This document shows, in pieces, positions 115-36,693 of a DNA stretch of 40,272 bases. Below the pieces are notes generated by a model. It was not told the origin of the DNA. It searched no databases and was given only the letters and a program-made list of their open reading frames with translations. The DNA lies in the IMG/VR virus record IMGVR_UViG_3300033143_004486, positions 1 through 40,272 of that record; one strand, given 5' to 3'. Source of the DNA: a virus. Each line of letters opens with the position of its first letter. The stretch's first letter is position 1. Position numbers and translations under genes: made by a program.

Positions 115-1753
115 TGGTGCTAAAGGATTGTTAGGGGCGGCATCAAAAATACCTATTGCCGGCAAACTGGCCTCATTACCTGTATTGAGGTCGGCATTAG
201 GATTTGGGGCGTATGAAGGCACAAAAGCATTAGCAACAGGGCAACCCGATCCCTTAGAAAAGGCAAAAGAGGGGGTAATAAGCGGTGCCACTTTTCACGC
301 TGGAGGCCGCCTTGGAGCTTCTGTTGGTGCAAAGGCTCTTGGTCCCCTGACTAAACATGGAGCGCGCATAGGTTCATCTATAGGTGCTGGCGGTGTATCT
401 GCGGCAATGGCTCCAGAAGGCGAAAAAGTATCCAGCGCTCTTATTGGCTCCGCATTTGGCGCAAGACATCCAAGCGAACCGTTTAAGCACAAAACCCCTA
501 AAGCCCTCATGAATGAAGCAACTTCGATTTATCGAAATGTTTTAAGGCCAACGCAAGGAGAAGTCAAAAAAGTTGAAATTGTTAAAGGAAAAAACATAAA
601 TGATTATTATCAGCTTGCAGCAAAAGAGAGATTGCCAATAAAACAAACATCTGACAAGAAATTAGATACTGCTTCCGCCCGTGAAATTATTAAAGAAAAA
701 ACAAAGGAAAGCAACGCAAGGTTGAGCGATGTTTTAAAATATGACAAAGACGCAAGGTTTGATTTGGTGGAAATAGGAAGATCTGCGGTTAAAGATGCTC
801 GGTCAAAAGTAAAAAATGCGAAAGAATTGCAATCGGCTGAAAAGGAAATAGCTGATTATATCGGCGCAGAAATGGAAAGGCATGGAAGTCGATTCATAAA
901 TGCTGAAACGCTTAACAATGTTAAACAAGGAATGTGGTCTATAGGGTATGATCAACTGCGTCCCACCGCGAGAAAGAATGCCAGGCGTATAGGGTTCCAG
1001 ATTAAAGATAAGATTGAAAAAACTTATATTGATAAAAATATCCGTGAAATTAACCGTACGACAGGGGATTATTTAACGTTAGACAGATTGCTCGAAAACG
1101 CGCACGGACGTGTTGTTAAGGGCGGTCGGCTGGGCGGATATTTCGGGCGAACTACGGGTGCGCTTATTGGTGGATTTGCAGGCCAGGCCATACCCGTTCC
1201 TGGCGTTGGTCCGGCTATTGGAGCTATGGCGGGGCAGCAGATAGGGGCAAAAGCCGTTGACATATTTTCTTCTCCCAAGTATATGACCAGGAAGGCTGGG
1301 AAAAAAATAAGCAAAGCTGAATCCATGTCAAAGAGAAAATATCCATTAGACAGATTCATGCAAAATCTTATTTCGAGATTATCCCCAAAATTGAGTCAAG
1401 AGGTTATAACGCCAGAAGTTTTACCGCCAGAGCCACAAAAACGCCTCACTGACTTAAGGACAGGACAAAAGGCCTTACCCGCCCCCCGCGACGTCCCCTA
1501 TTCTCCAAGCATGCATAAAGTTGTAGGGGGAGGCATACGTGTGCCACCAACGCACGGTAAAGGCGTTATTGCAGGTCAACCGCCGCCTACGCCGTACACA
1601 GGCACAACTCTCCCCGTTCCCGTAAGAACTCCACGCCCGAAGATTACACCCGCAGAAATACGAGAGATAATGAAACAGAAAACAAAAGGAAGAATACTGA
1701 GGTCTACGGGGCAAGAAAAAGTTTTTCCGAAATCAATAAAGGAAATACGATGA
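2..1753 (+). CDS. Large virion injection (ejection) protein, C-terminal part; gene starts at 39920
   Basis: The frame is open from the left edge and continues the gene that starts at 39920. The joined protein is about 663 residues. The TTG at 53 is only an internal codon. Ala/Gly-rich stretches occur near the start. A clear glycine zipper is encoded at about 1129-1275 (GGYFGRTTGALIGGFAGQ and following GxxxG-type spacing), which could insert in a membrane. Between them lies a charged, helical middle section, and the C-terminus is Pro/Arg-rich. Its position between other injection-type genes and the fibres, its size and its composition fit a podoviral internal protein that is ejected with the DNA and helps cross the envelope. 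I recognise no named family. The stop overlaps the ATG of the next gene (ATGA). Confidence 0.6.
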   Translation, partial: EISRPIEETAVEGVPAQLAYGAVQAAPILAGAASPFMAGAKGLLGAASKIPIAGKLASLPVLRSALGFGAYEGTKALATGQPDPLEKAKEGVISGATFHAGGRLGASVGAKALGPLTKHGARIGSSIGAGGVSAAMAPEGEKVSSALIGSAFGARHPSEPFKHKTPKALMNEATSIYRNVLRPTQGEVKKVEIVKGKNINDYYQLAAKERLPIKQTSDKKLDTASAREIIKEKTKESNARLSDVLKYDKDARFDLVEIGRSAVKDARSKVKNAKELQSAEKEIADYIGAEMERHGSRFINAETLNNVKQGMWSIGYDQLRPTARKNARRIGFQIKDKIEKTYIDKNIREINRTTGDYLTLDRLLENAHGRVVKGGRLGGYFGRTTGALIGGFAGQAIPVPGVGPAIGAMAGQQIGAKAVDIFSSPKYMTRKAGKKISKAESMSKRKYPLDRFMQNLISRLSPKLSQEVITPEVLPPEPQKRLTDLRTGQKALPAPRDVPYSPSMHKVVGGGIRVPPTHGKGVIAGQPPPTPYTGTTLPVPVRTPRPKITPAEIREIMKQKTKGRILRSTGQEKVFPKSIKEIR

Positions 1754-3819
1754 AAAAACTCTTACCTTTCTTACTATTATTTTTAATTCTATCAATCCCA
1801 GGATTTGCTCAAAATACAGTTGCCCCGCCTTTCTGTTATGAGGAAGTTGACGGCGATCCCGCAACGTGTTTTTCTACGCCTTTAAAATTCCCGAATGGGA
1901 CATTGACAGAGAATGCCGACGGTTCAATGACGTATACAGCTGGCAGCGGTTCAGGCACGGTCGACACCACCGCTCTCTGGCTTGAGTCAAACAATATCAT
2001 AGATACTGCTTACGGCGAAGACGACATTGCTATTGCCACGGAGGTGTTTTATGTAGACGTTAGCGCGGCGAATGTTGGGGTTGGCACAAGTACGCCAGCG
2101 TTCAAATTTCAAACAATCGGTGACTTGGCTGTAGGGACAAATATTCTGTTTGTTGATTACAGCGCATACAATGTTGGTATCGGAACAAACGAGCCTCTGG
2201 CTCGATTGGATGTAAGAGACGGAGATGTTGCGATATCTACCAACGTGCTGTTTGTGAACGCTTCAACGGGCTACGTTGGGATTGGGACAAGTAACCCGCA
2301 GAAATCGCTTGATGTAACAGGACAGACGAACCTTGAGGGCGTAGTTACGCTTGGCGTAGCGGCATCTGATTTTTCAATCCCAGTGTCAAGGGTTGGGGCT
2401 GGTTTAGGCTACCTTTGGGCTTATAATAACGCTGGAGCGATGATCTGGACTGACCCGACATCATTGGCGGGGGTAGGTCAATGGACAGATACAGGCTCAT
2501 TGATTCACCCCTCAGAGGTAGGCGACCATGTGTCGATAGGCACATCTACGCCCGATCCTTTGGTGTTTACTGATATTCGGGGTGGCGATTTAGCTGTTGC
2601 GACTAATTTATTGTATGTAGAAACCAACTGGAACAACGTGGGAATAGGCAGGGTAGGGGTAGGCACAAACACCCCGTCAGCGATGCTTGAGGTCAAAGGG
2701 TACGCGTATATTAATGGTAGGCTGGGAGTCGGCACAAGCGGTGCTTCCGAGTTTCTCCATGTTAACGGGGATTCAGCGTTTCAAGGCGGGGATTTATCGG
2801 TTGATACCACTTTATTGTTTGTTGACGTAAGCGCTGGTAACGTTGGCATTGGCACCTCAACCCCGTCTTACAAACTCGATGTAAATGGAGCGGGCAAGTT
2901 TGACGGGATCGGAGATTCATATTTTGATACTAACGTAGGGATTGGTACAAGTACACCAGCGTCGAGATTAGACGTACAGGGCGGGGATCTTGCTATAAAC
3001 ACGTTGATGTTATTTGTGGATCAGAGTGCAGAGAAAGTCGGCATCGGCACAAGCACGCCAGTGCATAAGGTAGATATTATAGGTGATTTGGCAATATCCA
3101 CAGCTTTGTTTATTCCTTACAGTGCAACGCCAACAGTTGACGCAGTCGGCAGTTTGGCATTAGATACGAGTTTAACTGATCCCGAGAATATGGGGTTACC
3201 TGTTATTTATGACGGTACCCGACAACTTTATATTGTCGCAACAACAGATACGCCAGCAGATAATGAGATACCTACTTATGATGACGCAACAGGATTAATT
3301 ACTTTTGAGGAAGCAGCTGCTGCGCCAGCTGGCGGTAATGATTTCTATTGGACACTTCAACCGCAACAAGTGCATTTATCTGAGACTACTATTCCAGAGA
3401 TTGACGGGGGTGATGATGCGTGGAAACTATTGTTTGACGATACCACCATTGAGACAGGCATATGGGAAACGTCATTACGACCTTATGGTCTTGGCAATTT
3501 GACAGGCGAAATTGTATGGGAGGCAGAATCTTCGAACGATGCAGGTGAGACCGTTGATTGGCAGATAGCTGTAGATTGCTGGACACCGAATACAGATAGC
3601 CTGAGTATAGATACAAGATCTTGGGGGGCAACGGACACTTTGACAGATTCGGTTATAAGCTCTGATCAACGTAGACCTTACACTATATCGGATGAGGTAC
3701 TTGAAGGCGACGGTTGTATCGAGGGTGATATTATTTATGTGAAAATCTGGACAGATACGGGAAGTGATACAGTTGTTGGAGACAGAGGGTTACTTAAAGC
3801 AATAATCTACGAACCGTAG
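1750..3819 (+). CDS. Exported fibre-like protein with VGIGTSTP repeats (cassette 1)
   Basis: 689 residues. Residues 1-20 form a textbook Sec signal peptide (MKKLLPFLLL..., cleavage after GFA). The body is built of about nine units of roughly 40 residues carrying variants of LFVD-S-A-NVGIGTSTP-KLDV-G, a beta-repeat common in phage fibres and large adhesins. The C-terminal ~160 residues (DFYWTLQP... to the end) form a separate domain sharing the DCWTPNTDSLSI motif with the second fibre at 5164. Gene position is that of a podoviral tail fibre, but the signal peptide is odd for a protein expected to assemble in the cytoplasm. It could be a secreted adhesin or decoy instead. The start overlaps the previous stop and has AAAGGA as ribosome site. 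Confidence 0.7.
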   Translation: MKKLLPFLLLFLILSIPGFAQNTVAPPFCYEEVDGDPATCFSTPLKFPNGTLTENADGSMTYTAGSGSGTVDTTALWLESNNIIDTAYGEDDIAIATEVFYVDVSAANVGVGTSTPAFKFQTIGDLAVGTNILFVDYSAYNVGIGTNEPLARLDVRDGDVAISTNVLFVNASTGYVGIGTSNPQKSLDVTGQTNLEGVVTLGVAASDFSIPVSRVGAGLGYLWAYNNAGAMIWTDPTSLAGVGQWTDTGSLIHPSEVGDHVSIGTSTPDPLVFTDIRGGDLAVATNLLYVETNWNNVGIGRVGVGTNTPSAMLEVKGYAYINGRLGVGTSGASEFLHVNGDSAFQGGDLSVDTTLLFVDVSAGNVGIGTSTPSYKLDVNGAGKFDGIGDSYFDTNVGIGTSTPASRLDVQGGDLAINTLMLFVDQSAEKVGIGTSTPVHKVDIIGDLAISTALFIPYSATPTVDAVGSLALDTSLTDPENMGLPVIYDGTRQLYIVATTDTPADNEIPTYDDATGLITFEEAAAAPAGGNDFYWTLQPQQVHLSETTIPEIDGGDDAWKLLFDDTTIETGIWETSLRPYGLGNLTGEIVWEAESSNDAGETVDWQIAVDCWTPNTDSLSIDTRSWGATDTLTDSVISSDQRRPYTISDEVLEGDGCIEGDIIYVKIWTDTGSDTVVGDRGLLKAIIYEP

Positions 3820-3827
3820 GGGGATAT

Positions 3828-4226
3828 ATGAGAACGTTAATAATCTGGTTGATGTTATGCGGTGTGGCTTTGGCAGGAGATTACTGTTGTTTCGATAAAG
3901 ACGGCATAATCACCGAGAAACACTGGTCAGTTGACGGCGCAGACCTTCGGGCAAGGGATGACTGTTTGCAGCTGACTCATGAAGAAATGCAGGAAGTCAC
4001 CGAGTGGCATAAGATTGTTAAAGGCGCATTAGCGAAGATGACGCAGGAAGAAATTGACGCTATCGTAGCAGCAAGGGCGGCAGCGGCAAAGCAGACAGCG
4101 ATTGACGCAGTAGACGCTTACCAGATAGACAGCGAGTGGCTGGCGAAAGCTCTGGTTGACCAGAACCTTATATCCGAAGCTGATTTACTTACAGCGATAA
4201 AAACGTTGAAAGGGTTGACTCCGTGA
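3828..4226 (+). CDS. Small exported protein, paralogue of 7911-8321 (cassette 1)
   Basis: 132 residues with a signal peptide (residues 1-16, cleavage before GDYC). The mature start GDYCCFDKDGIITEKHWSV is closely matched by GDFVCYDEEGIITSKHYSV in the second cassette. It then has a helical middle (KMTQEEIDAIVAARAAAAK) and an amphipathic end. Three cysteines lie in the mature protein (two adjacent near its start, CC, and DDC further on). The family is unknown to me; it may be a chaperone, fibre partner or periplasmic factor. It has a strong ribosome site (TAGGGGGATATATG) and overlaps the next gene by GTGA, so it is co-translated with the LamG gene. Confidence 0.75.
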   Translation: MRTLIIWLMLCGVALAGDYCCFDKDGIITEKHWSVDGADLRARDDCLQLTHEEMQEVTEWHKIVKGALAKMTQEEIDAIVAARAAAAKQTAIDAVDAYQIDSEWLAKALVDQNLISEADLLTAIKTLKGLTP

Positions 4227-4957
4227 AGATATTAACTGGATTGTTAATTATGATGTTGGTGTGTTGCTCGGCGTGGGCGGGGGTGGAGTTTGATGGGACT
4301 GATGATTATGTTGATTGCGGGAGTGATGCGAGTTTAGAAGTAGCAGATAACTTTACAATTTCGTTTTGGATGAAGGCAGATACAACAGGTGGTTGGAGAG
4401 GTATGGTTCAAAAGGGGAGAGATGATGTAAACGATTATTTTGGGGTTTGGTTAAGTGGTACTACATTATATTTTGGGACTAATAAGACTGACGAATCGGC
4501 AAATCTGTTAAGTGGCGGCAGTATATCAACAAATATATGGTATTACATTACAGCGGTTTATGATGGAATTAACAAACGAGTTTATACCAATGGTATATTA
4601 GCTGGTGGACCGACAGCGGCAGGAGTGGGGAATAGTTCAAAAAATTTAAGTATTGGTCGTGCGCTTGGAGTATCTGAATATCATGACGGCCAAATCACCG
4701 AAGTCGCCATCTGGAACACCGTTTTATCCGCTCAACAAATAAAAAATCTTGCCAATTCCAGAGTCAAGGGGTTACCTTTACAGTTTGAACGGGACAATTT
4801 AATGGGCTACTGGCCGTTAGATGATGAGAAGTCAGGGACAAGCGGGGACGGTGACACCTTCCGAGATTTAAGCGGCAACGCTAACCACGGGACAGGTGTT
4901 GACGGTGCAAACAATACAGGGTTGACGTGCAGGGGGGAGAGGTTGACTTATCCATGA
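4223..4957 (+). CDS. Exported LamG/concanavalin A-like lectin-fold protein (cassette 1)
   Basis: 244 residues with a GTG start overlapping the previous stop. A signal peptide (residues 1-19, ...CCSAWA) is followed by a single LamG-like jelly roll (Laminin_G_3-type): VEFDGTDDYVDCG, FTISFWMKAD, WYYITAVYDG, RVYTNG, LSIGRALG, ITEVAIWNTVLS. The end contains MGYWPLDDEKSG. Such domains usually bind carbohydrate or protein on surfaces. The adjacent fibre suggests an adhesin role, on the virion or on the host surface. Its paralogue is 8314-9084. Confidence 0.85.
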   Translation: MKILTGLLIMMLVCCSAWAGVEFDGTDDYVDCGSDASLEVADNFTISFWMKADTTGGWRGMVQKGRDDVNDYFGVWLSGTTLYFGTNKTDESANLLSGGSISTNIWYYITAVYDGINKRVYTNGILAGGPTAAGVGNSSKNLSIGRALGVSEYHDGQITEVAIWNTVLSAQQIKNLANSRVKGLPLQFERDNLMGYWPLDDEKSGTSGDGDTFRDLSGNANHGTGVDGANNTGLTCRGERLTYP

Positions 4958-5154
4958 GAATACTATTTTTCGTACTTGCATCTTTGTTTCTTTGCATAAG
5001 CGTAGCTTATTCCAGCACGCTTATCCGTAACGCCAAGCTGCAAGAAGCGTCTATATATAAGGGCGGTGCGGCACCAGAAGCGGATTCGTATTTGTTGCTG
5101 GAAACTGGTGATTATTTCCTTCTTGAAACAGGTGATAAAATAATTTTAGAATAG
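4954..5154 (+). CDS. Small exported protein with LLETGD repeats
   Basis: 66 residues. I prefer the ATG at 4954 (ATGA overlap with the LamG stop) to an upstream start, since it puts a signal peptide (MRILFFVLASLFLCISVAYS) at the N-terminus. The C-terminus has the repeated turn YLLLETGDYFLLETGDKIIL, a short beta-repeat. No counterpart follows the second cassette. Function unknown; perhaps a capping or linker peptide for the exported fibres. Confidence 0.65.
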   Translation: MRILFFVLASLFLCISVAYSSTLIRNAKLQEASIYKGGAAPEADSYLLLETGDYFLLETGDKIILE

Positions 5155-5163
5155 GGAGAGAAC

Positions 5164-7920
5164 ATGCGAAATATTGTATTATTTTTACTGATTTTGATTA
5201 TCCCGTCAATGTCATATGCGGCTGATTCAAAAATATCTGCGTTAGATGCTATAACTGCCCCTACGACAAGCGATTATCTTCCTATTGTTAATGACGATGA
5301 TACCTCGAATAAAAAAATTACCACAGGAAACCTTCTGGGCGTTGCCAATGATTTAGATAGTAGCGGTGACGTTGCGAACGATTCTCATGACCATACATCG
5401 ACAACAGTATCCGGATTAGATATTTCCGCAGATACCAACTTAACAGCTGGTGACCACATAACTCTGACAAATGACGACCTTGATGTTGATGATGATTTCC
5501 TTCTTAATACCGGGGATACGGGAACAGGGGCTTATATTTTCCAGGATGGAGATTTCTCGATTGATACGACGTTATTGTTTGTAGATGTTTCAACAGCGCG
5601 GGTAGGAATTGGCACATCAACACCAAGTACTAATTTAGAAATTTACAGTACAAGTGACCCTACCCTTACTTTCGGAAATGATGGTGATGACGGGGTTATT
5701 CATTGGGAAACCAGTGGTGATTATTTTTCATTGGAAGGCGCTGATTTGGGATGGATAGTTATCGACCCTTCTGATACAGATAACTGGGTCGGTACTTTTT
5801 ATGACAATACAAATAACCGAGGGATAGTACAAGCATGGGATTCAAACAGGTCCGGTGCAGAGGATTTAATGTTAGGAAATCATACAGTCAATCAATTATT
5901 TCTTGATTCTGGAGGGAATGTCGGCATTGGCACGACTGCCCCAACCGCAACACTTGACGTAGTGGGTAACGTCGAAATTAATGGCAGCACGGTTATTGCA
6001 GGTGATTTATCTATCGGCACAGGGTACGACTTCGTCATAGGCGCGAATGATGTCACAGATGCAAACGATTACATCGACGGGGATTATGTTTCTTTGGATA
6101 GCCTTACAGTATCAACTTACACAACGTTTCAAGAATTTATTAATACGACGCATTCGGCTGGCTGGATAAGTGGGGGAGAGTTTTCAGACAATGGGGATGG
6201 CAGTTTATCCGTTGCCGTAGGAAACGGCTTGTTTAAGACAACTGATTCCGTGTGGGGTACAACAGTGTTCGGCAATTGGAGCGCGGACACGAATGTTAGT
6301 CTTACTGATAATGATACAAATACGATTTACGTTGATTACAACAGCGGGACTCCTTCAATAAATGCAACGGTTACACCAGGAGCAACTATAGATCACACGA
6401 CGCAACATACCCTGGGTGTAGTATATCGTGACGGAACTACACTGCACATGCTTCGTGGCGGTGCTATTATTAATAATATCCCTCGTAGAGTACACCGTCA
6501 TTTCAAAGAAGATGAAGGTAACCACAGAACATCGGGCATGGTTACGGCGGAAGCTGGAACGCGGGAAATTACTATCACTGAAGGGGTGGCATACGCTGGA
6601 CTCAATCGTTTTACAACTGATGCGTTTGATAGTCAAACAACGGATTTTACTTATTACTATAATGACGGGGCATGGCAGACATCCGCTACAGGGACAATAG
6701 ATAACACGCAGTATAACGATTATGGGACAGGGCTGGCAACTTTAACCGCTCAAAGGTACGGCGTGCATTGGGTATTCATGCACTTTGATAGTGATGTCTA
6801 TGTTGTGTACGGTGTTGGGAATTATACTATTTCTCAGGCGGAAGATGTGAATCTTCCTGCTAATTTACCAGATATAATTAATGATTTCTCAATACCGATT
6901 GCTAAAATCATTATTCAAAAGAGTGGAGCATCTTTTACGGCGATTGAAACACCATTCGAGGAGTCTTTTTCTAAATCTATCGTTGACGATCATAACGATT
7001 TGGGTAATCTCGATGGCGGGGAAGCTACTTTTTACGGGCACAACACCATCGCGGTTAATGCCTGGATGACAGCGAATACTTTGGGGAGCGACGGTTCCCT
7101 TGCCATTGGTACCGAGGTTTTGTTTGCTGATGCTACGAACGAAAGGGTCGGCATCGGCACAAGCACGCCAGCACATAAGGTAGATATTATAGGTGATTTG
7201 GCAATATCCACAGCTTTGTTTATTCCTTACAGCGCAACGCCTACAGTAGATGCGGAAGGTTCTTTGGCTCTTGATATGAGTTTGACTGATCCCGAGAATA
7301 TGGGATTACCTGTTATTTATGACGGTACACAGCAGCTCTATATTATAGCAACTACTGATACACCTGGGGACAATGAGATACCAAAATATGATGATGCTAC
7401 GGGATTAATTACGTTTGAGGCTGATGCTGGTGCGGGTGGTTCTGCTGGTTTCTCTTGGAGTCCAAAGATTTTATCTGCTAAATTGTCTTCAGATGATCCG
7501 CCTGCTATTGATGCTGGTACCAGGGCATGGAAAGTGCTTTATGATGGCTCCTCCATTGAGACTGCTACTTGGCAGACAGTATTAAGACCGTATGACGGCG
7601 GTACGCTTCAAGGTGAGATTATTTATTCCATGGCTTCTGCAAGTGATGTAGGGGCGACGGTTGAATGGGACATAGGTATAGACTGCTGGACACCAAATAC
7701 AGATAGTTTGAGCATAGAGACAGCTTCTTGGGGTACTCTTGATGAGTTAACGGATACTGTTTTATCTGGACAGCATAGACCGCATTCAATAGCAGATTCG
7801 AGTCTCAATGAGGATAGTTGCGCAGAAGGTGATTGGGTTAATCTACAAATATTTCCTGATGTAGATAATAATGCTACAGCTGGAGACCTTGAATTGTTGG
7901 GGGTGACAATATGGGAATAA
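5164..7920 (+). CDS. Exported large fibre-like protein (cassette 2)
   Basis: 918 residues with a signal peptide (residues 1-19, ...SMSYA) and ribosome site GGGAGAG. The mature N-terminus KISALDAITAPTTSDYLPI resembles N-terminal modules of phage tail fibres. Three VGIGTSTP-type units (about residues 140, 255, 660) bracket a long unique central region (about 300-640) that is a candidate receptor-binding or head domain. The C-terminal ~250 residues are homologous to the end of the 1750 fibre, with a 95-bp nearly identical DNA stretch (7147-7241). The gene overlaps the next small exported gene by 10 bp. Confidence 0.7.
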   Translation: MRNIVLFLLILIIPSMSYAADSKISALDAITAPTTSDYLPIVNDDDTSNKKITTGNLLGVANDLDSSGDVANDSHDHTSTTVSGLDISADTNLTAGDHITLTNDDLDVDDDFLLNTGDTGTGAYIFQDGDFSIDTTLLFVDVSTARVGIGTSTPSTNLEIYSTSDPTLTFGNDGDDGVIHWETSGDYFSLEGADLGWIVIDPSDTDNWVGTFYDNTNNRGIVQAWDSNRSGAEDLMLGNHTVNQLFLDSGGNVGIGTTAPTATLDVVGNVEINGSTVIAGDLSIGTGYDFVIGANDVTDANDYIDGDYVSLDSLTVSTYTTFQEFINTTHSAGWISGGEFSDNGDGSLSVAVGNGLFKTTDSVWGTTVFGNWSADTNVSLTDNDTNTIYVDYNSGTPSINATVTPGATIDHTTQHTLGVVYRDGTTLHMLRGGAIINNIPRRVHRHFKEDEGNHRTSGMVTAEAGTREITITEGVAYAGLNRFTTDAFDSQTTDFTYYYNDGAWQTSATGTIDNTQYNDYGTGLATLTAQRYGVHWVFMHFDSDVYVVYGVGNYTISQAEDVNLPANLPDIINDFSIPIAKIIIQKSGASFTAIETPFEESFSKSIVDDHNDLGNLDGGEATFYGHNTIAVNAWMTANTLGSDGSLAIGTEVLFADATNERVGIGTSTPAHKVDIIGDLAISTALFIPYSATPTVDAEGSLALDMSLTDPENMGLPVIYDGTQQLYIIATTDTPGDNEIPKYDDATGLITFEADAGAGGSAGFSWSPKILSAKLSSDDPPAIDAGTRAWKVLYDGSSIETATWQTVLRPYDGGTLQGEIIYSMASASDVGATVEWDIGIDCWTPNTDSLSIETASWGTLDELTDTVLSGQHRPHSIADSSLNEDSCAEGDWVNLQIFPDVDNNATAGDLELLGVTIWE

Positions 7921-8321
7921 AGAGAAAGGTTTTAGTTTTAATCGTTTTGCTGATGTCAGCAAAATGTTATGCGGGTGATTTTGTTTGTTATGATGAGGAA
8001 GGAATAATCACAAGCAAGCATTATAGCGTCAATGGTGATAAACAGCGTAAGCAGGGATGTTTGCGGGTTGAGAGGAAGATGTTTAAAGTCCTTACACGTT
8101 GGTATAAGATAATTAATAATAAAGTTATAAAAATGACACAAGAAGAAAAGGACGCTATCCTTGCAGCAGAAGCGGCGGCAGTTAAACAAGCCGCGATAAT
8201 TGCGGTTAACAACCTCGAAATAACAGTCATTGATTTAGGCAAGGCATTGGTGCAATTAGATGTTGTGGGTGGTGCCGACTTAAAAGCAAAAATCAAAGAA
8301 ATTAAGGGGCTTGATGAATAA
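7911..8321 (+). CDS. Small exported protein, paralogue of 3828-4226 (cassette 2)
   Basis: 136 residues with a signal peptide (residues 1-21, ...AKCYA). The mature protein matches the cassette-1 protein along its length: DGIITEKH/EGIITSKH, a conserved second cysteine, KMTQEE-DAI and an alanine-rich helix. It is more basic than its paralogue. It sits in the same place between fibre and LamG genes, so fibre, small protein and lectin probably work together. Confidence 0.75.
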   Translation: MGIKRKVLVLIVLLMSAKCYAGDFVCYDEEGIITSKHYSVNGDKQRKQGCLRVERKMFKVLTRWYKIINNKVIKMTQEEKDAILAAEAAAVKQAAIIAVNNLEITVIDLGKALVQLDVVGGADLKAKIKEIKGLDE

Positions 8322-9084
8322 GATTTTTATGATATTGGTGGTCTTGATGTTATGCGTTTCGCCGTGTTGGGCGGGATTAAACTTTGATGGCGTGGACGAT
8401 TTCTCAAGCGCGGGTGATAAAGACATCCTGGCTGGCGCAACAGCATTCACTATCAGTGCTTGGGTAAAATTTAATTCTATAAGTTCAGATTATGACGGAA
8501 TTATTTCTGAATGGGCGTCAAATAAGTATCAATTTTTCTTCGGAAAATCTGACGGTGACGAGCTTTTCGCTGGTCATGGAAATGGTGGGTCTGGAAATAC
8601 TGGGTCTTTTTCAAACAACGTTGATTTTGTGGCAGGTACTTGGTATCACGTTTTAATTCGTTGCACGGGTGGAGGAGATAGTTCTAATTATGATTTTTTT
8701 GTCGATGGGTCACAAACAGCCGAGACAGGACAATACGGTAGTGCTTATACGATTGGTGATGGTTCGGGAAATTTAAAAATTGGAAATGATGATTTATCAA
8801 ATGATTTAAATGGAGTTGCCTCTGAAGTTGCTGTTTGGAATGTTAGTTTAGATACCAATGAGATTTCTTTGTTAGCTAATTCAGGGGTGAAGAGGATGCC
8901 TTTACAAGTGCAATATTCCAATTTGGTTGGTTACTGGGCGTTGGATGACGAGCCAGACGGATCAAGTGGTGACGGTGATACTTTTCTTGATTTAAGTTCA
9001 AACAGAAATGATAGTACTGGGGACAACGGCGGGAATAATACAGGATGTACAAGTGTCGCTGAATCAGTTTTGAGTTATCCATAA
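8314..9084 (+). CDS. Exported LamG/concanavalin A-like lectin-fold protein (cassette 2)
   Basis: 256 residues. ATG at 8314 is preferred to the TTG just upstream because AAGGGG precedes it; it overlaps the previous gene by 8 bp. It has a signal peptide (residues 1-20, ...SPCWA) and then a LamG jelly roll: LNFDGVDDFSSAG, FTISAWVKFN, WYHVLIRCTGG, DFFVDGSQT, LKIGNDD, VASEVAVWN. The end (VGYWALDDEPDGSSGDGDTF) is like its paralogue at 4223. Probably a carbohydrate- or surface-binding protein. Confidence 0.85.
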   Translation: MNKIFMILVVLMLCVSPCWAGLNFDGVDDFSSAGDKDILAGATAFTISAWVKFNSISSDYDGIISEWASNKYQFFFGKSDGDELFAGHGNGGSGNTGSFSNNVDFVAGTWYHVLIRCTGGGDSSNYDFFVDGSQTAETGQYGSAYTIGDGSGNLKIGNDDLSNDLNGVASEVAVWNVSLDTNEISLLANSGVKRMPLQVQYSNLVGYWALDDEPDGSSGDGDTFLDLSSNRNDSTGDNGGNNTGCTSVAESVLSYP

Positions 9085-12914: not shown

Positions 12915-12986
12915 TGGGAGCACAAAGACTCGAACTCTGAACTGCAGGTCTACAGCCTGGCGTGATTCCAGTTTCACCATACTCCC
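12915..12986 (-). tRNA. tRNA with anticodon GTA (Tyr), short variable arm
   Basis: A complete cloverleaf can be folded by eye. The 7-bp acceptor GGGAGTA/TGCTCCC has one G-T pair. The D stem is GTGA/TCAC with a GG-containing loop, and the anticodon loop is CTGTAGA. The T arm is CAGAG-TTCGAGT-CTTTG. The discriminator is A and no CCA is encoded. The anticodon stem has a C-C mismatch at the 27-43 position. The variable loop has only four bases, whereas bacterial tRNA-Tyr normally has a long variable arm. It lies in the early operon between the exonuclease and small genes. Confidence 0.85.
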
Positions 12987-26084: not shown

Positions 26085-26380
26085 TAAATTTTCTCGAATA
26101 CAATAATATCGGTGCGGTTGCATCCGAGGCAGCAATAAGCGTTGATGCGACTGCTGTCCCTTACACCGTGACCGCTGGAAAAAAGGGAGTAAGTTTTCAA
26201 AACGTCGGCAGTAAGGTTGCGTGGTACGGAGGTTCTAACGTTGCCCCTGCGTCAAACATTGGTAATAAGCTCTTTCAGAGCCAAGGGCTTGTTTATAAGG
26301 GCACGAGGAATACCTTTAAGGTTTATTTCCGATGTGCGGCAGGTGAATCCACAACGATAGGCGTGATTAACCATGACTGA
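26081..26380 (+). CDS. Small beta-sandwich-like virion protein
   Basis: 99 residues. AVPYTVTAGKKGVSFQNVGSKVAWYGGS suggests a compact beta domain as in small head-decoration or fibre proteins. Directly before the portal. Function inferred. Confidence 0.5.
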   Translation: MINFLEYNNIGAVASEAAISVDATAVPYTVTAGKKGVSFQNVGSKVAWYGGSNVAPASNIGNKLFQSQGLVYKGTRNTFKVYFRCAAGESTTIGVINHD

Positions 26381-28175
26381 CAAACCAAAAGAAAAAGTTA
26401 TCGATAAACTACAGAAATGGTGGACGCTCGCCGAGGGAGCGCATCAGCCGTGGCTCGTTCAAGCCAGACAAGATTTAGATTTTTATATCGGCGGTGATCG
26501 TCAGTGGGATGCGAATGACCTATCAATATTGAGGGCGGAGAAACGTCCAGCGCTGACATATAACATGCTTTTCTCGCTTGTGAATTTAGTGTCTGGATAT
26601 CAACGTCAGAACCGTCAGGATATTACTATTTATAATCGTAAGGGCGGGACAAAAGAAATAGCAAATATTCTTTCGGAACTGATTAAACATATTCACGACG
26701 GATCGTACGGCGATTGGGAAACATCATTAATGTTTTTAATGGGGATCATAACTGGCAAGGGGTGGCTGGGACTTAACGTTGATTATGACGACGAGGTTAC
26801 TACAGGGGAGATTGTGATAGAAAACCTTTCACCGTTTAGGATTTACCCTGATCCTTTTTCGACGAAATATGATATGCGGGATGGACAGTTTATTTTTAAA
26901 ATTGCGTGGTTGCCGAAAGACCGCTTAAATTTAGCTTTTCCTGAGAAGAAAAACGAATTTGAAGGATTAGTTGTAAATGAAAAGGATAAAGAGCCGTTAC
27001 CGTTCACGGAAGGCGACAAGTATAAAGACTGGCCTGTTGAGGGCTCGTCAACGGAAGAAATAGACAAGTTTCGGTACCGTGTAAAAGAATGCTGGTGGAA
27101 AGATTTTGAGGAGCAGAAGTTTCTCGTCGGCATTGAGTCAGGTGTTGTTAAGCAGGTAGATTTTCCGAAAGCAAAGATTGACGCTATTCTTAGGCAATAC
27201 CCGACAATGCGTATAGTAAAACGTGTCCGTCCTGTTCTTAATTTAACGACTTATGTTGGTAACGTAGAAATCCAAAATATCAGAGATCCTCTGAACGGCG
27301 TAACGCAGTTTCCTATTATTCCATTTTTCAGCTATTGGGTGGAAAACCATCACTGGGGGGTTATCACGCAGTTAAAAGACCCACAGCGAGAGATCAATAA
27401 AAGGATATCGCAGGCATTGCATCATCTTAACCAGACGGCTAATTCTGGATATACCGCCGACGAGAACGCGACGGCTGATTGGGACGCGCTTGAAAACAAT
27501 ATCTCCAAGCCAGGATACATTAAGAAATTAAAGCCAGGGGCAAGGTTTGAGCGGGATACGCCTGCGCCGTTATCAGAGGGGCACATAAAACTTGCAGAAA
27601 CTGGGAAAGGTGCTGTGCGTGAGATATCTGGCGTTAATCCTGACTTAGCTGGGTTGCCAGAGGATAAGAACGTGTCCGGTATTCTGATGGCGCAACGCAG
27701 GAGCCAGGGGTTAATTACAATTGAGAGCGTCTTCGATAATATGCGTATGTCAAAGCAGATTTTAGGAACACGTCTTATTGAAATGATCCAGAAGACCGAC
27801 GTTTATACTAAGCAAGAAATATTGACAATGGTAATTGACGGGGATGTTAAAGAATTTCCTGTTAATATGCAGGCAAAACAGAACGCTGTGGGGGAAATTA
27901 AGAATGATCTAACGATAGGAAAATATAAGATTTCTGTCTCTGAGTCGAAGACCTCACCGACCGCAAGGACGCGAGATTTCGCCATGCTTATTGAGGCCGT
28001 CAGGGCAGGGTTGCCGATACCGCCAGAAGTACTTCTTAAGGCAAGTGATCTTCCATACAAGGAAGATATCATGCAGGCGATGGGTGCGGGAGCGCCGGCG
28101 CCAGGAGGGGCTCCAGGTGGAGCGCCGCCGCCGGCACCGAAACCAAGACCTGCGCCAGCTGGGGCGCCCAGATGA
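26373..28175 (+). CDS. Portal protein (P22-like)
   Basis: 600 residues. The core is recognisable: WTLAEGAHQPWLVQARQDL, YIGGDRQWD, KRPALTYNMLFSLVNLVSGY, QRQNRQDITIYNRKGG, and LSPFRIYPDPFS. It ends in a low-complexity Pro/Gly/Ala tail (about 570-600). It forms the ring through which DNA enters and leaves and on which the neck is built. Overlaps the 26081 gene. Confidence 0.93.
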   Translation: MTDKPKEKVIDKLQKWWTLAEGAHQPWLVQARQDLDFYIGGDRQWDANDLSILRAEKRPALTYNMLFSLVNLVSGYQRQNRQDITIYNRKGGTKEIANILSELIKHIHDGSYGDWETSLMFLMGIITGKGWLGLNVDYDDEVTTGEIVIENLSPFRIYPDPFSTKYDMRDGQFIFKIAWLPKDRLNLAFPEKKNEFEGLVVNEKDKEPLPFTEGDKYKDWPVEGSSTEEIDKFRYRVKECWWKDFEEQKFLVGIESGVVKQVDFPKAKIDAILRQYPTMRIVKRVRPVLNLTTYVGNVEIQNIRDPLNGVTQFPIIPFFSYWVENHHWGVITQLKDPQREINKRISQALHHLNQTANSGYTADENATADWDALENNISKPGYIKKLKPGARFERDTPAPLSEGHIKLAETGKGAVREISGVNPDLAGLPEDKNVSGILMAQRRSQGLITIESVFDNMRMSKQILGTRLIEMIQKTDVYTKQEILTMVIDGDVKEFPVNMQAKQNAVGEIKNDLTIGKYKISVSESKTSPTARTRDFAMLIEAVRAGLPIPPEVLLKASDLPYKEDIMQAMGAGAPAPGGAPGGAPPPAPKPRPAPAGAPR

Positions 28176-29330: not shown

Positions 29331-30311
29331 ATGGCAGAAACCAGATTTGCATCAGGCGACAACCTTGCTGTAAAACTGTGGGCTGTAAAGCTATTCAAGG
29401 AATCAATCAAAGATATTTTCTTTGATAAATATACGTCCGAGGACGGGAAAACTGTTATTCAGAAGAATACAGAATTCACCAAGAAAAAAGGTGAAATCAT
29501 GACTTTCCCGCTCCGTATGAGACTTACCGGCGACGGCGTCAATACGGACAATGATTACCTTGAAGACAACGAAGAGGAAATGACTTTTTATGACTTCGAT
29601 GTTACGCTTGAGGAACGCGGTAATGCAGTACGGGCAAAGTCGAAACTTGACCTGCAGAGGCCAGCTTTCGATCTTAGGACACAGTTCAAGGAAGGATTAA
29701 AGGACTGGGTGACAGAGTATGTTGACAAAACAATAATCACTGCTTTGTCTGCTTCTCCTACGGCAAATAGAAATATTTTCGGCGGGGACGCAACATCAAC
29801 AGTGGATATTGAGGCGGCAGATACTCTCTCTACATCCTTGATTTCCAGGGCAAAGCGTAAAGCCAGATTAGGTACGCCTAAAGTGCGCGGCTGTATGGTC
29901 GGCGGAGAAGAGAAATATTTGCTTCTTTGCCATGATTACCAGACCAAAGCGTTGAAGGCTGAAACAGCATGGCAGAATGCGCAACGGGAAGGTAATGTCA
30001 GGGGAGAGAAAAACCCACTTTTCAGCGGTGCATTAGGGATTTGGGATGGTGTTGTTGTAAAAGAATACGAACGCGTGAAGACATATAACACCTGGGGCGG
30101 GGCAGCCCTCACAGGTGCAAGGGCTTTATTGTTAGGCCGCCAAGCAGGCGTTGTTGCTTACGGGCAGATGCCAGCATGGTATGAAAAAATGTTTGATTAC
30201 AATCGTATTCCAGGGGTTGCCACAGATATTGTGTGGAAGGCAGCTAAAACAGTCTTCAATGGTGAGGATTTTGGATTAATCGCAGTTGACACTTATATTG
30301 CCGTCGACTAA
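29331..30311 (+). CDS. Major capsid protein (N4-gp56 family)
   Basis: 326 residues. The N-terminus AVKLWAVKLFKESIKDIFFD, EFTKKKGEIMTFPLRMRLTG, and DVTLEERGNAVRAKSKLD are family hallmarks; an HK97-type fold is expected. Ribosome site AGAGGAG. Confidence 0.92.
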   Translation: MAETRFASGDNLAVKLWAVKLFKESIKDIFFDKYTSEDGKTVIQKNTEFTKKKGEIMTFPLRMRLTGDGVNTDNDYLEDNEEEMTFYDFDVTLEERGNAVRAKSKLDLQRPAFDLRTQFKEGLKDWVTEYVDKTIITALSASPTANRNIFGGDATSTVDIEAADTLSTSLISRAKRKARLGTPKVRGCMVGGEEKYLLLCHDYQTKALKAETAWQNAQREGNVRGEKNPLFSGALGIWDGVVVKEYERVKTYNTWGGAALTGARALLLGRQAGVVAYGQMPAWYEKMFDYNRIPGVATDIVWKAAKTVFNGEDFGLIAVDTYIAVD

Positions 30312-30328: not shown

Positions 30329-31210
30329 ATGAGGAAGTTTATTGCTTTTATTTTTGTCGCCCTCTTATTGATGGTGACAGTACAACCAGCTCATGCGTTG
30401 TATGGGTTGGAGAAGTTTTGGGGCGCGGTATATGATGAAAACGGAAACATTCGGACAGATGTTGATACGGTAACGGTGTGGACAGAAGACACTACTACCG
30501 TGGCGACTGTTTATTCTGATAATGTTGGGACATCATTAACAAACCCCATAACAACCGGCTTAAGTGACGGGATCTTTGAGTTTTATAGTGCTACTTCCGA
30601 ATTTGATGTTTTAATTGAGGCTGGAAGCAGGGCTACGTTGCTTGAGGATTGGTCTACATCGAGCAAACACGACATCGTGATTGACACCCAGGTCGCAACT
30701 GATAGGGTTATGCGTTTCTTGCCCAATGAGTTTATAGGCTATGACTGGGATAGTGGCGATAATCTTGGGAAACAGTCGGCAATAGTTCTCTTGACTTCAA
30801 CTGCTCCTGCTCTTGGCGTAAGAAATGACGCATCTTGTCTTATCTGGTTGGATGCAACAGAAACCTATGCTCAGGTGACTTTCAAAGTACCTGACGATTA
30901 TATTTCGGAAGGCACGTTTAGGGCTTTCACGGATTATAATACAGGTTCCGACCATCCAAACATCCAGTACCGCGTTTTTATTAATTCCGATGGTACCGTG
31001 TGGGACGTCAGCTATACAACCCAAACAAAGGTTGATCCTGCTGGAACCGCGGGAACGCCAGAGTTAACAGCCTTACCTATCACAACCGATTTTGCTTCAT
31101 TGGCGGCAGGTGAGATTGTTACTTTTGCTGTTACCAGGGATAATATCGATACATCTGCGGCTGAACTGGAATTGTATTATGTTGAATTTAGCTACAGCGC
31201 TAAAAATTAA
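30329..31210 (+). CDS. Signal-peptide protein following the capsid gene
   Basis: 293 residues. Residues 1-23 look like a Sec signal peptide (MRKFIAFIFVALLLMVTVQPAHA). Two beta-rich domains follow: about 24-120 (GAVYDENGNIRTDVDTVTVW..., carboxypeptidase/Ig-like) and about 130-293 (jelly-roll-like). A decoration protein would be expected here, but the export signal suggests another destination. Ribosome site GGGAGG. Overlaps the O-antigen-like gene by 32 bases. Confidence 0.65.
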   Translation: MRKFIAFIFVALLLMVTVQPAHALYGLEKFWGAVYDENGNIRTDVDTVTVWTEDTTTVATVYSDNVGTSLTNPITTGLSDGIFEFYSATSEFDVLIEAGSRATLLEDWSTSSKHDIVIDTQVATDRVMRFLPNEFIGYDWDSGDNLGKQSAIVLLTSTAPALGVRNDASCLIWLDATETYAQVTFKVPDDYISEGTFRAFTDYNTGSDHPNIQYRVFINSDGTVWDVSYTTQTKVDPAGTAGTPELTALPITTDFASLAAGEIVTFAVTRDNIDTSAAELELYYVEFSYSAKN

Positions 31211-32387
31211 AGAATGGGGGCGGGTTAACAAATCCGCCCTCGTTTTTCTCCTGGCCATGGCTTTCTGCATCCTTGGCCTTTATCCTGCAAAGCAGTTATT
31301 CTGGATGAAATGCTGGATAGCAGAATGGGCAATAATAGCCTTCATCGGATTGGTTTACATCAAAGAAAAATGGCTTAAGGTTATTCTTTTTTGGTGCTTG
31401 TTTAGGCTTATTTACAATTACAGCTTTGAATCTTTTGTTGTATTTCATTACATTTTTTTATTTCTGCTGGTCTATCAGATAATTCAAAATACCTTGGATG
31501 TCGATTGTAAGTATGTGGTAATAAACGGGTTATGCGTAATTATGTTAATCCAATTAGCATATATGTACTTACAGTATTTTAAATTAGACCCGATATTTCA
31601 GGATATAGGGCAGGCTCGGATAGGAAACGAAACGATAGACGTAACAAAAAATGTTAAAGATTTTGTAGTGGGGACTTGGGGTCATACAAACTTTTCGGGC
31701 GCAAGTTTGGCGATGGTTATCCCTTTATTCTTTCGCAAAAAATGGAATCTATTTTTGTTGCCATTGGGATACATGTTATTTTTAACAAAATCCTTAGGCG
31801 CTATAGGCGCTTTATTTATCGGAATTATGTTCTTTGTCATATTTAACCTGAAATTAAAGAAATGGCTGAAATTCTTTATTATCTCGCTTGTATTGTTAAG
31901 TGGATTTACATATGCCGTAAAGTACGAGAAGCAATATTTGAGCTTCGATAACCCCAGGACGGCATACTTAAGGCCGGTTGTTCAATATGTTAAAATTCGG
32001 CCAGTCATAGGGTGGGGCTTAGGTCAATATAAATTTGCTTACCACGCCATTCGGCGCGCCATAGCGAATGATAATCGGTCGAGAGCTACTAATCCTGGGA
32101 ATCGATCCCATTTACATTTTGAACTTATTGAATGGGTGTTTGAAGCTGGAATCGTAGGGGGAATGTTGATTTTAGGATATTTTACACATTTATTTATACA
32201 ATTTATAAAATTTAAGAGTTATTTCGGGTTGATATTAATGACGGGGATAATAATATCTTTAGCAAATTCATGCTCAACGTTTAGTTTTCACACCCCTATT
32301 GCATGGATATTTTTAATATATTTAGTGTTTCTCAAAAAGGAGGTAATCCAGAATGTTAATCAAATACACGGGACCAAAGCCGTCTAA
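31179..32387 (+). CDS. O-antigen ligase/polymerase-like membrane protein (Wzy_C type)
   Basis: About 402 residues from the ATG at 31179, chosen since the longer frame upstream is only the shadow of the previous gene. About ten hydrophobic spans. Around residues 270-330 lies the large loop with VIGWGLGQYKFAYH and NRSHLHFELIEWVFEAG, the pattern of O-antigen ligase (PF04932) proteins (GxGxGxY ... H-L-E-x-G). Such enzymes join or polymerise surface polysaccharide in the periplasm. In a phage it could change host LPS or capsule to block reinfection. It is embedded in the head-gene operon and overlaps both neighbours. Confidence 0.8.
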   Translation: MLNLATALKIKEWGRVNKSALVFLLAMAFCILGLYPAKQLFWMKCWIAEWAIIAFIGLVYIKEKWLKVILFWCLFRLIYNYSFESFVVFHYIFLFLLVYQIIQNTLDVDCKYVVINGLCVIMLIQLAYMYLQYFKLDPIFQDIGQARIGNETIDVTKNVKDFVVGTWGHTNFSGASLAMVIPLFFRKKWNLFLLPLGYMLFLTKSLGAIGALFIGIMFFVIFNLKLKKWLKFFIISLVLLSGFTYAVKYEKQYLSFDNPRTAYLRPVVQYVKIRPVIGWGLGQYKFAYHAIRRAIANDNRSRATNPGNRSHLHFELIEWVFEAGIVGGMLILGYFTHLFIQFIKFKSYFGLILMTGIIISLANSCSTFSFHTPIAWIFLIYLVFLKKEVIQNVNQIHGTKAV

Positions 32388-33226: not shown

Positions 33227-33928
33227 ATGGCTTTAACGAATCCGTTTGATACCGCGACTCCAGCGGGCTCCGACAATCCGACCGCTGGGGATGATAGAAT
33301 TCGTGAACTAAAGGACGCTATCGTTGAACGGGAAGGGCAGGATCATTACTGGCCTGATTCGGGCACGGTTTACGATGATGATGATTGCGGATTGCATAGC
33401 AAGGTCAGTCTTTTGGTTCAAGGTGCTGACGCTTCCGCCAAGGCAAATGCAATTGTTCTTTACGGGAAAGATGTTGGTGGAAAATGTGAAGCCCATTTGA
33501 TCGATGAAGACAGTAATGTTGTTCAGTTAACATCCGCAGGGGAAGTGAACGCTGCAAGTGAATTCGTGACAGGCGATTTGCTGTTTTCCTCCGTAACAAC
33601 TGCACACACGGGCTGGACAAACGTCACAGCGACTTATGCGAATAGGCATATCAGGGTTGGCAATACGGAATTGGGTACAGGCGGAAGCGCTACATTGGCT
33701 GGTGCGACATCAGGTCATACCTTGCAAGAATCTGAAATTCCCGCGCATACCCATAGTTATGACGCTCATTCAGGTGGGTCAACAACAGGTAATGGCGGAA
33801 ATAGCAATATTAATCCAGATGGGGATACAACGGGTAGCAAGGGTGGCGGCGGTTCCCACTCCCATGCTTTGACAAGCGTAGCGAATACGCCCTTATATGT
33901 GGATGTTAGAGTTTTCAAGAAGGATTAA
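33227..33928 (+). CDS. Tail-collar / receptor-tip-like protein with HxH motifs
   Basis: 233 residues. The N-terminus NPFDTATPAGSDNPTAGDDRIRELKDAIVER resembles phage fibre base modules. The C-terminus contains EIPAHTHSYDAH...GSHSHALTSV and ends PLYVDVRVFKKD, as in collar and long-fibre tip domains that bind iron through HxH. No signal peptide, unlike the exported fibres. Probably a virion fibre or collar. Confidence 0.8.
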   Translation: MALTNPFDTATPAGSDNPTAGDDRIRELKDAIVEREGQDHYWPDSGTVYDDDDCGLHSKVSLLVQGADASAKANAIVLYGKDVGGKCEAHLIDEDSNVVQLTSAGEVNAASEFVTGDLLFSSVTTAHTGWTNVTATYANRHIRVGNTELGTGGSATLAGATSGHTLQESEIPAHTHSYDAHSGGSTTGNGGNSNINPDGDTTGSKGGGGSHSHALTSVANTPLYVDVRVFKKD

Positions 33929-34308: not shown

Positions 34309-34502
34309 ACCCAGAAACCAAACGTATCCTGAAAAAAAATCTTGAAGATATTAGCAAAGAGAAGAAAAGGCTTGAATTCGATCTAACGGCAGTCACGCGA
34401 AATATTGGCAGCAGTGAAACAAGGAAAAAATATCTTGAAGCAAAAATTCAAAGCCTCAATAAACAAACGCAAGAGATTGTGAATGATATAAATGGCAAAT
34501 AA
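34305..34502 (+). CDS. Small coiled-coil protein
   Basis: 65 residues, GTG start overlapping the previous stop; highly charged helix (LKKNLEDISKEKKRLEFDL...). Overlaps the nozzle gene by 11 bases. Could be a chaperone or assembly factor. Confidence 0.55.
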   Translation: MNPETKRILKKNLEDISKEKKRLEFDLTAVTRNIGSSETRKKYLEAKIQSLNKQTQEIVNDINGK

Positions 34503-36693
34503 ACCTTTTGGAATATTGAGCCCGACATCAGGTATAAAGCAGGATTATCCGTCAATTTTGCTTAAGGATGCCTATATGCCAGATGAGAGTGATGATATCG
34601 ATAACGTCTGGTTTAAGGATGGTGAGATTCACAGCATCCGGAAGAGGGTTAAAGAATTCACGCAGCAATTAGATGATCCGATCCTATATTCTGAGCAATA
34701 CTGGAAAAAAGACGAAACATTTAAATTGATGGCGGCCACGAAGCGGGATATTGTTTATCGTGATGCCGCAAATGATAGGTATGTATTTGTTACGCCTCAA
34801 TATAGTACTGGCGTTCTCAGGGTGGAGAACGGGTCAGCGGAAGTATACGGAGGGCTCAATCTCGATGATTGTGATGATGACGGGGTGGCTTGGGCGGACG
34901 GTTCTGGCGGGGATGTCACTGTTTCACGTGAAACAACCGAGAAAAAAGAGAATACTGCTTCTGTGAAAATGATAGTTGATGCAGCCGCGGGGGTTGAATT
35001 ATTGGCTTACCACGATATTGCGGCTGTCAACTTATCAACTTATGATGCTATTGGCTTTTGGTTTTATTCAAGCGTGGCGTTAGCTGCTGGAGATTTAAAG
35101 TTTTACATGGATGACACGGCTGGTTGTGGATCCCCGATAGAAACTATTGATTTACCTGAAATTGCTGCGACTACATGGACATGGGTTGAAATCGATATGG
35201 ACGATCCTTCATTGTGTACTGCTATTGTATCGCTTGGGATATACCAGGCCGTTGATAAAGGCGCTATGACGCTCTACATCGACCAAATAGTGGCAGGCGA
35301 CTGGGAAGGTCAGCTAAACGCGAACGATTTTATTACAATTGGGACAACTTATTCAACTGACGACACATGGTATGAGGTTTCCGCGGTTACAGATACCCAC
35401 ATTACCTTAACGGCTGTTTACGCTGGCTCTACGGCTTACCAGCAGGCATATTTAGCCCGCCAGACATATACGGGCGGAAATACGGATTTTTGGAAAAGCG
35501 TCACATTTAATGACAATTGGCTGGTCACAAACGGCGTTGACAATATACAAACATATGACGGTTCTGGTCAAGCCGCGGATTTATCAGGAAGCCCTCCTAA
35601 AGCCCGTGAAATTACCGTCTATGAGAACTATGTTATAGTTGGTAATATTCAGCCAGGGGAGCCGTATACATATCAATGGTGTGCCATTGGGGATGAAACA
35701 AACTGGTCAACAGGAGATAGCGGGTCTAACGAAATAGATGACTATTTCTTAATCAAGGGATTCGCTAAAAACAGCGGATTTTTGATTATCTTAACGGAAC
35801 GTACGCTCGAGCGTGTTTGGCTTGTTGGCGGCGATCTTGTTTTTAATAAGAAACGCATAACATCCGATTGCGGGGCATGGGCATCCAGGTCAATAATCGA
35901 GACAAACAGTGCGATATATTTTTACGCGCCTGACAACACTTTCAGGAAATTTACAGGATTAACTTGGGAATCTATTTCACGTCCATTCGATAAATACATC
36001 AAGGATATTCATCCAGCATATGAGAAAAGTATTACGGTAACATACATCGAGGAACATGACGTTATTCTTTGGGCTGTCCCTGATTCAACAAGCACGGGAA
36101 GATTGAACCAGGTGCTTTGTTATGATTTAAAAAAACCTATAGGTGTCGATAGTTGGTCAAAATTCGCAATGGAAGTAATGGCCTTCGGGTTTTATGAGGT
36201 TGAGGATACGGAAACATGGGATACTTGGTCGTTTGCGACATGGGATTCAATCACATGGGATAGGTGGGATACGAGAACAGGCTTCGAGGGAGCCCCGCGG
36301 GAATTATGTACGGATTATAGCGGAGATACTTTTAGGTTGTTTGCTTCTGAAACGGATAACGGGGATTCGTTTACAAGGAAATTTGTATTATCAACATCGC
36401 TCTCTAAAAATAAAAGCAGCCTGCAATATGTTAAGCGATTAATTAAAGCGAGATTAATATTCAGAAACGAAGAGGCGGGTACAGTAAACGTTTACATTAA
36501 ACGTGATTTTGAAGGCTCGTATCAGTCTGCTGGCTCGGTGTCTCTCGACGGAAGTGAAGATTTTTTGTTTCTTGATGTTTACATGAATTATTCAGGAAAA
36601 AACTTTATTTTTAAATTTGAAGCGACAAATAGATTCAGATTTATTGGTATGATTTTTGATGAGGAGTCGTTTAGCATCGAGGGGAATAGATGA
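34492..36693 (+). CDS. Tail nozzle/hub protein (P22 gp10-like) with an inserted jelly-roll domain
   Basis: 733 residues. The N-terminus FGILSPTSGIKQDYPSILLK and the WD/beta-propeller-like second half (VYENYVIVGNIQPGEPYTYQ, GFAKNSGFLIILTERTLERVW, AIYFYAPDNTFRKFTG, VILWAVPDSTS) suit a podoviral nozzle. Residues ~120-270 look like an inserted carbohydrate-binding jelly roll (DDCDDDGVAWADGSGGDVTV..., GFWFYSSVALAAGDLKFYMDD, AMTLYIDQIVAGDWEG). Tryptophan-rich repeats (TWDTWSFATWDSITWDRWDT) occur near residue 575. Confidence 0.75.
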   Translation: MANKPFGILSPTSGIKQDYPSILLKDAYMPDESDDIDNVWFKDGEIHSIRKRVKEFTQQLDDPILYSEQYWKKDETFKLMAATKRDIVYRDAANDRYVFVTPQYSTGVLRVENGSAEVYGGLNLDDCDDDGVAWADGSGGDVTVSRETTEKKENTASVKMIVDAAAGVELLAYHDIAAVNLSTYDAIGFWFYSSVALAAGDLKFYMDDTAGCGSPIETIDLPEIAATTWTWVEIDMDDPSLCTAIVSLGIYQAVDKGAMTLYIDQIVAGDWEGQLNANDFITIGTTYSTDDTWYEVSAVTDTHITLTAVYAGSTAYQQAYLARQTYTGGNTDFWKSVTFNDNWLVTNGVDNIQTYDGSGQAADLSGSPPKAREITVYENYVIVGNIQPGEPYTYQWCAIGDETNWSTGDSGSNEIDDYFLIKGFAKNSGFLIILTERTLERVWLVGGDLVFNKKRITSDCGAWASRSIIETNSAIYFYAPDNTFRKFTGLTWESISRPFDKYIKDIHPAYEKSITVTYIEEHDVILWAVPDSTSTGRLNQVLCYDLKKPIGVDSWSKFAMEVMAFGFYEVEDTETWDTWSFATWDSITWDRWDTRTGFEGAPRELCTDYSGDTFRLFASETDNGDSFTRKFVLSTSLSKNKSSLQYVKRLIKARLIFRNEEAGTVNVYIKRDFEGSYQSAGSVSLDGSEDFLFLDVYMNYSGKNFIFKFEATNRFRFIGMIFDEESFSIEGNR

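Follow-up and report, generated by a model that had tools for sequence, protein, structure and literature searches.

Sec-type signal peptides on the fibre and lectin genes of an uncultured P22-like podovirus and of related phages

The fibre and lectin genes at the presumed tailspike position of an uncultured P22-like podovirus fit substrates of the Sec pathway and signal peptidase I, as judged by the n-h-c form of their N-termini and the -3/-1 rule, and their products are predicted to be exported. By these sequence criteria the signal set is real, goes beyond chance and is wider than the original prediction had it, taking in ten phages, an eighth gene and a linked glycan gene. We suggest, with the balance evenly poised, that outer parts of the virion pass into the periplasm, where they fold and become oxidised, and encounter the particles at lysis.

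The window, i.e. the whole stretch of DNA analysed, is IMG/VR record IMGVR_UViG_3300033143_004486, 40,272 bases long with a direct terminal repeat of 114 bases, which is what a complete, circularly assembled virus genome looks like. Portal, capsid and gp10-type families place it, by sequence, among the P22-like podoviruses. Terminase subunits and a RecT with a nuclease are also encoded in the window, together with the following signal-less virion genes:

26373..28175, plus strand: P22-like portal (PF16510, E 2.3e-100), signal peptide absent, core control
29331..30311, plus strand: major capsid protein (phrog_334, E 2.5e-70), signal peptide absent, core control
33227..33928, plus strand: collar-type fibre candidate (phrog_5795 tail protein, E 5e-4), signal peptide absent
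34492..36693, plus strand: gp10-like virion protein (phrog_3287, E 2.2e-28), signal peptide absent in the window

The 33227 product is a possible cytoplasmic receptor-binding protein. A long ORF spans the contig ends and stops at 1753, and the seven genes that drew attention come directly after it; given the P22 gene order, we take this ORF to fill the ejection-protein slot and the genes after it to stand at the tailspike position. They are as follows (arrows mark predicted cleavage):

1750..3819, plus strand: fibre 1, 689 aa; GFA↓QN; VGIGT-type repeats; jelly-roll-like C-terminal domain with Cys610/Cys656; phrog_9942 tail fiber, E 4e-18
3828..4226, plus strand: small protein 1, 132 aa; signal peptide ALA↓GD; mature Cys20, Cys21 and Cys46
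4223..4957, plus strand: LamG lectin 1, 244 aa; GTG start; signal peptide AWA↓GV; Pfam Laminin_G_3, E 1.7e-25
4954..5154, plus strand: short protein, 66 aa; signal peptide AYS↓ST; LLLETGD repeats; ATG start at 4954 (longer mechanical ORF from 4927)
5164..7920, plus strand: fibre 2, 918 aa; signal peptide SYA↓AD; C-terminal domain as in fibre 1, with Cys841/Cys886
7911..8321, plus strand: small protein 2, 136 aa; signal peptide CYA↓GD; paralogue of 3828
8314..9084, plus strand: LamG lectin 2, 256 aa; CWA↓GL; Pfam Laminin_G_3, E 1.6e-17; paralogue of 4223; ATG start at 8314 (mechanical ORF from 8311)

All seven ORFs of the original prediction were found at their coordinates, and a Sec-type n-h-c signal peptide was called in every one (scores of 31–51 against a threshold of 30). 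The calls were made by a purpose-written rule-based predictor that weighs n-region charge, an uncharged h-region and the -3/-1 rule; calibrated on E. coli, it gave a call for 21 of the 24 proteins known to be exported and for 3 of the 96 others. The site in 7911 was assigned against the rule's own choice, which was a poorer one. In 93 other phage contigs 27 of 1368 predicted genes (2.0%) were called, one of the 27 being a piece of the window itself, and among 21 fibre-region proteins of conventional environmental phages there was no call. At the background rate, seven calls out of seven have a p of about 1e-12 if the genes are independent, an assumption that the paralogues violate. Shuffling residues 2–30 gave a call in 0–9% of shuffles and reached the real score in at most 0.6%. 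The only other calls in the window were 9477 (short, lipoprotein-like), 11872 (minus strand) and 30329; the upstream part of a frame opening at 31092, discussed below, scored 22.5, under the threshold. The 11872 gene (11872-12249, minus strand) lies in an opposite-strand block and encodes a 125-residue protein with signal peptide AFA↓GI and no family.

The signals could in principle be recent acquisitions or prediction artefacts without a role, produced by chance hydrophobicity or misassigned starts, as might be argued from the use of a predictor other than SignalP and from paralogues that inflate the count. We regard this as very improbable: the shuffle control does not reproduce the signals, a Shine-Dalgarno-like sequence precedes most starts of the signal-bearing genes, and the signals of different phages have diverged in sequence with their type kept. 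Further to that, an internal start with a Shine-Dalgarno sequence just after the signal was searched for and is absent, so nothing points to an additional, cytoplasmic form. No lipobox was called in the seven, and the eight signal-bearing proteins of the window had no Pfam match to an anchor or sorting family (YadA-type, T9SS, sortase or outer-membrane).

The seven are not independent genes. The layout is fibre 1750, small protein 3828 and LamG 4223, then the short gene 4954, then fibre 5164, small protein 7911 and LamG 8314, i.e. a tandem-duplicated three-gene cassette with 44–46% identity between the copies. The modules themselves are homologous to signal-less fibre and lectin cassettes of other phages (hhalign 99.9%), and the tail-fibre families phrog_9942 and phrog_863 are matched by homologues. 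Where the signal is missing, the initiator Met takes the position of the mature start: signal-less LamG proteins open with MPVTFDG, MAIDFTA or MSVNFTT against A↓GVEFDG, and the signal-less small proteins of L102 and L014 with MADYIKYD against A↓GDYCCFD in the window, the same start as that of the mature protein.

Cysteines follow the signals in part. The Cys pair of the small protein occurs only in the two window copies and is absent from the signal-less L102 and L014 copies; the small protein of L115 carries a signal yet lacks these cysteines, so the link between signal and cysteine runs one way. In the fibres, the C-terminal domain of about 160 residues seen in fibres 1 and 2 is a tip common to six signal-bearing fibres, and other phages have a homologue of it as a free-standing, signal-less protein within their fibre cassette (hhalign E 1.5e-36); both cysteines of the pair are present in four of the six, and neither is present in the other two or in the signal-less homologues. 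AlphaFold, given the tip domain with six relatives, returned a beta-sandwich of moderate confidence (pLDDT 68), and this model resembles carbohydrate-binding modules and a Klebsiella K2 tailspike, with a closer resemblance to domains found in uncharacterised viral proteins. The signal-less cassettes L114, L011 and L121 have the homologous tip domain and the LamG protein in the same order as the window, but in them the tip is a separate short protein, the middle gene encodes a different small protein, and both the Sec signal and the tip Cys pair are lacking. There is an even chance, in our estimate, that the window cassette is a receptor-binding module, at the tailspike position, onto which Sec signal peptides were added, in a phage of a probably diderm host.

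Relatives were found by a LamG profile search followed by walking outwards along the contigs. The profile recovered many phage LamG proteins without a signal as well as a distinct signal-bearing set, and homologous modules with signal-bearing fibre and/or LamG genes were recovered from at least nine other uncultured phages: G001 (L013/L102), G002 (L014), G003 (L016), G004 (L077), G008 (L107), G010 (L115), G011 (L117), G012 (L119) and G013 (L120). The GC content measured in relatives ranges from 36 to 62%, the upper value being that of G008. The rule called 39 of 44 signal-bearing genes listed by hand from the ten phages, with Ala at -1 in 30 of the 39; conservation among these signals is slight, the n-h-c form being what is retained. 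The fibre-small-LamG order of the window recurs in L115, where the small-protein and LamG signals were called by the rule and that of the fibre was read by eye, and in L102 and L014, where the small protein is signal-less. Signals are also present in G003 on a GDSL esterase-like protein and on one with a beta-helix, and in G002 on a polyglycine-tip tail fibre (strong profile match, phrog_863). Also in G002 (L096, 43269-43350 of the contig, minus strand), a homopolymer run lies near the point where the fibre frame is separated from the start that encodes its signal peptide, the cause being either an assembly error or a frameshift.

Across these phages, core proteins recognised from synteny and profile (terminase, portal, scaffold, capsid, connector and ejection) lack a signal in about 60 hand-counted cases. 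The exception is a gp10-like protein of G001 (L102:13937-15442; phrog_3287, E 2e-33), of the same family as the window's signal-less 34492; a scan for its relatives recovered only itself, and this single-contig case gives the best indication of export among true virion proteins. On a LamG tree the presence of the signal changed 3 times, a figure no better than that of shuffles. Single-protein and two-sequence scans of viral contigs with the small protein and the fibres gave no match, as did tblastn of the small protein, tip domains and post-capsid protein against isolate phages. For a pattern scan, the aligned fibre tips differed too much among themselves.

Two further genes of interest lie outside the interval of the original prediction:

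30329..31210, plus strand: eighth signal-peptide protein, 293 aa; AHA↓LY; immediately downstream of the major capsid gene; weak match to the fibre C-terminal domain
31218..32387, plus strand: Wzy_C / O-antigen-ligase-like membrane protein; Pfam PF04932, E 3e-12; adjoins the eighth gene; mechanical ORF from 31092

The post-capsid gene bears a signal in the window and in five related phages (G001, G002, G003, G008 and G012); AlphaFold without relatives gave a pLDDT of 39 for its product. A polytopic Wzy_C protein follows it, between the capsid and tail genes, in the window, G001, G002, G003 and G012. A profile of six such proteins matches the WaaL structure 7tpg (E 3e-8), and the His of the H-N motif is kept in four of the six (window, G001, G002 and G003), being replaced by Lys in L119 and missing in G008, which lacks a significant match. 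Glycosyltransferase genes occupy the Wzy_C slot in G011 (L153 8471-12014) and G004 (L077 645-5318). The Wzy_C gene is present in 5 of 10 signal-bearing phages and in 0 of 40 signal-less LamG phages (Fisher p 1.2e-4), a comparison that sets different phages against each other and draws on many fragmentary records, so that kinship may account for part of the association. The window gene shares the Wzy_C domain and the 7tpg match with WaaL/Wzy O-antigen ligases and polymerases, but sits among the structural genes of a phage, next to a protein predicted to be exported; it encodes a putative ligase, for which the ligation of O-antigen to lipid A-core and the glycosylation of protein are equally possible.

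This linkage bears on the main rival of a virion role. The exported fibres and lectins could be secreted adhesins copied from virion modules, occupying the receptors of the infected cell or of its debris and so stopping superinfection and loss of progeny, with the O-antigen-ligase-like gene changing the receptor glycan to the same end. Lectin and carbohydrate-binding-like folds, the linked Wzy_C gene, the glycosyltransferases at its position in G011 and G004, and a signal-less fibre candidate (33227) left for the virion are all in keeping with this. However, the genes occupy the tailspike position within the structural block, no family of anchors or of outer-membrane export was recognised, and the gp10-like protein and polyglycine-tip tail fibre of the relatives are signal-bearing too, with no obvious decoy role. 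We see secreted adhesins as possible, though on the doubtful side.

Of the two readings originally offered, virion fibres maturing outside the cytoplasm and a secreted or surface-displayed adhesin system, we favour the former; display on the host surface is less likely because no outer-membrane or wall anchor was found. In favour of export and attachment are the tailspike position, the homology of the genes with fibre modules of virions, the cysteine pairs, the fact that no surface anchor was found, and the presence of signals on a gp10-like and a tail-fibre protein. The fibres, lectins and capsid-adjacent protein would be translated late, exported to the periplasm, cleaved and folded, some becoming disulfide-bonded there, while DNA is packaged into the heads in the cytoplasm; lysis would bring the exported parts and the finished particles together, and the outer appendages would attach. 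The O-antigen-ligase-like neighbour may modify the surface glycan or, as a speculation, glycosylate the exported proteins. There is a precedent for outer virion proteins binding to finished particles in Dec of phage L, which binds mature P22 heads in vitro (PMC7602432).

Several points count against this export reading. In P22, gp10 follows gp4 and is added at head closure (PMC5850374), so an exported gp10, seen in the one case of G001, is hard to square with retention of the packaged DNA. Disulfides can form in virions with no known periplasmic passage, as in phage Milano (PMC10811340). The signal-less collar-type fibre candidate 33227 means that the virion may not need the exported set, and two of the six signal-bearing fibre tips are without the Cys pair. 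Taken more broadly, it is our tentative proposal, held at somewhat less than even confidence, that one or more tailed-phage lineages finish their virions outside the cytoplasm, with fibres, lectins, capsid-adjacent proteins and, once, a head-closure protein being Sec-exported, oxidised, perhaps glycosylated by a phage ligase, and attached at lysis.

The cell envelope expected of the host would suit such a scheme. A small lipoprotein-like gene followed by a gene for a small protein with an N-terminal TM segment (9680-10212; the 9680 product is lipoprotein-like by eye) forms a spanin-like pair, which suggests a diderm host, in which an exported protein would remain in the periplasm until lysis. 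An amidase endolysin (16656-17129, minus strand; phrog_822, E 4e-27) has an N-terminal hydrophobic segment and resembles a signal-anchor-release endolysin. A tRNA-Tyr gene (12915-12986, minus strand) could help host assignment. A LamG-profile scan of genome contigs returned LamG proteins of bacterial genomes, and no related prophage was seen among the listed matches.

Compared with P22-like podoviruses and their tailspike gp9 module, the window is alike in its portal, capsid and gp10-like families and in having ejection-position genes followed by a fibre gene at the tailspike position; it differs in that fibre, small protein and lectins all bear signals and in that the module is a duplicated three-gene cassette. 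P22-type tailspikes are not known to carry a signal peptide. The textbook view is that the assembly of tailed phages takes place entirely within the cytoplasm. Among filamentous phages, the coat proteins pIII and pVIII are familiar examples of virion proteins with Sec signal peptides, but inoviruses assemble at the membrane and have neither tails nor lysis, whereas the window and its relatives are tailed dsDNA phages. In lambda, a signal-peptide gene, lom, lies among the tail genes (PMC12309495); unlike the window set, Lom is a host-membrane beta-barrel expressed in lysogens and belongs to no fibre or lectin family. The opinion that no phage system of this form has been described agrees with the open-access literature searched, in which we found no tailed phage with exported virion fibres.

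If outer parts are exported, disulfide-bonded and perhaps glycosylated, phage morphogenesis gains an extracytoplasmic stage, and receptor-binding proteins unable to fold in the cytoplasm become possible; if the products are secreted decoys instead, fibre modules have a new use in phage-phage competition. On either reading the assumption of annotation pipelines that a fibre gene encodes a cytoplasmic virion protein fails here, and signal-peptide prediction on virion genes offers a cheap screen across viral databases.

The N-termini might also stay uncleaved and anchor the assembly of fibres and heads to the membrane, with no release into the periplasm, a notion to which hydrophobic or amphipathic leaders on capsid and scaffold proteins of some relatives (G008, L011 and G003) lend some colour. 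We think it improbable, as most signals have A-x-A-like sites after the h-region, the h-regions are short, and the capsid leaders are of a different kind and absent from the window capsid protein. These leaders, of 15–25 residues and often ending in N-x-R-G, are found on capsid, scaffold, ejection-like or LamG proteins of several relatives (L112/L113 of G008, L011, L157 of G012 and L097/L098 of G003), for example MWWVKFFVSFLRNERG followed by VTLNLATKTSW on the G008 capsid protein and MLNNFLKHLKKTFLNNRG followed by AVDFDG on the L011 LamG protein.
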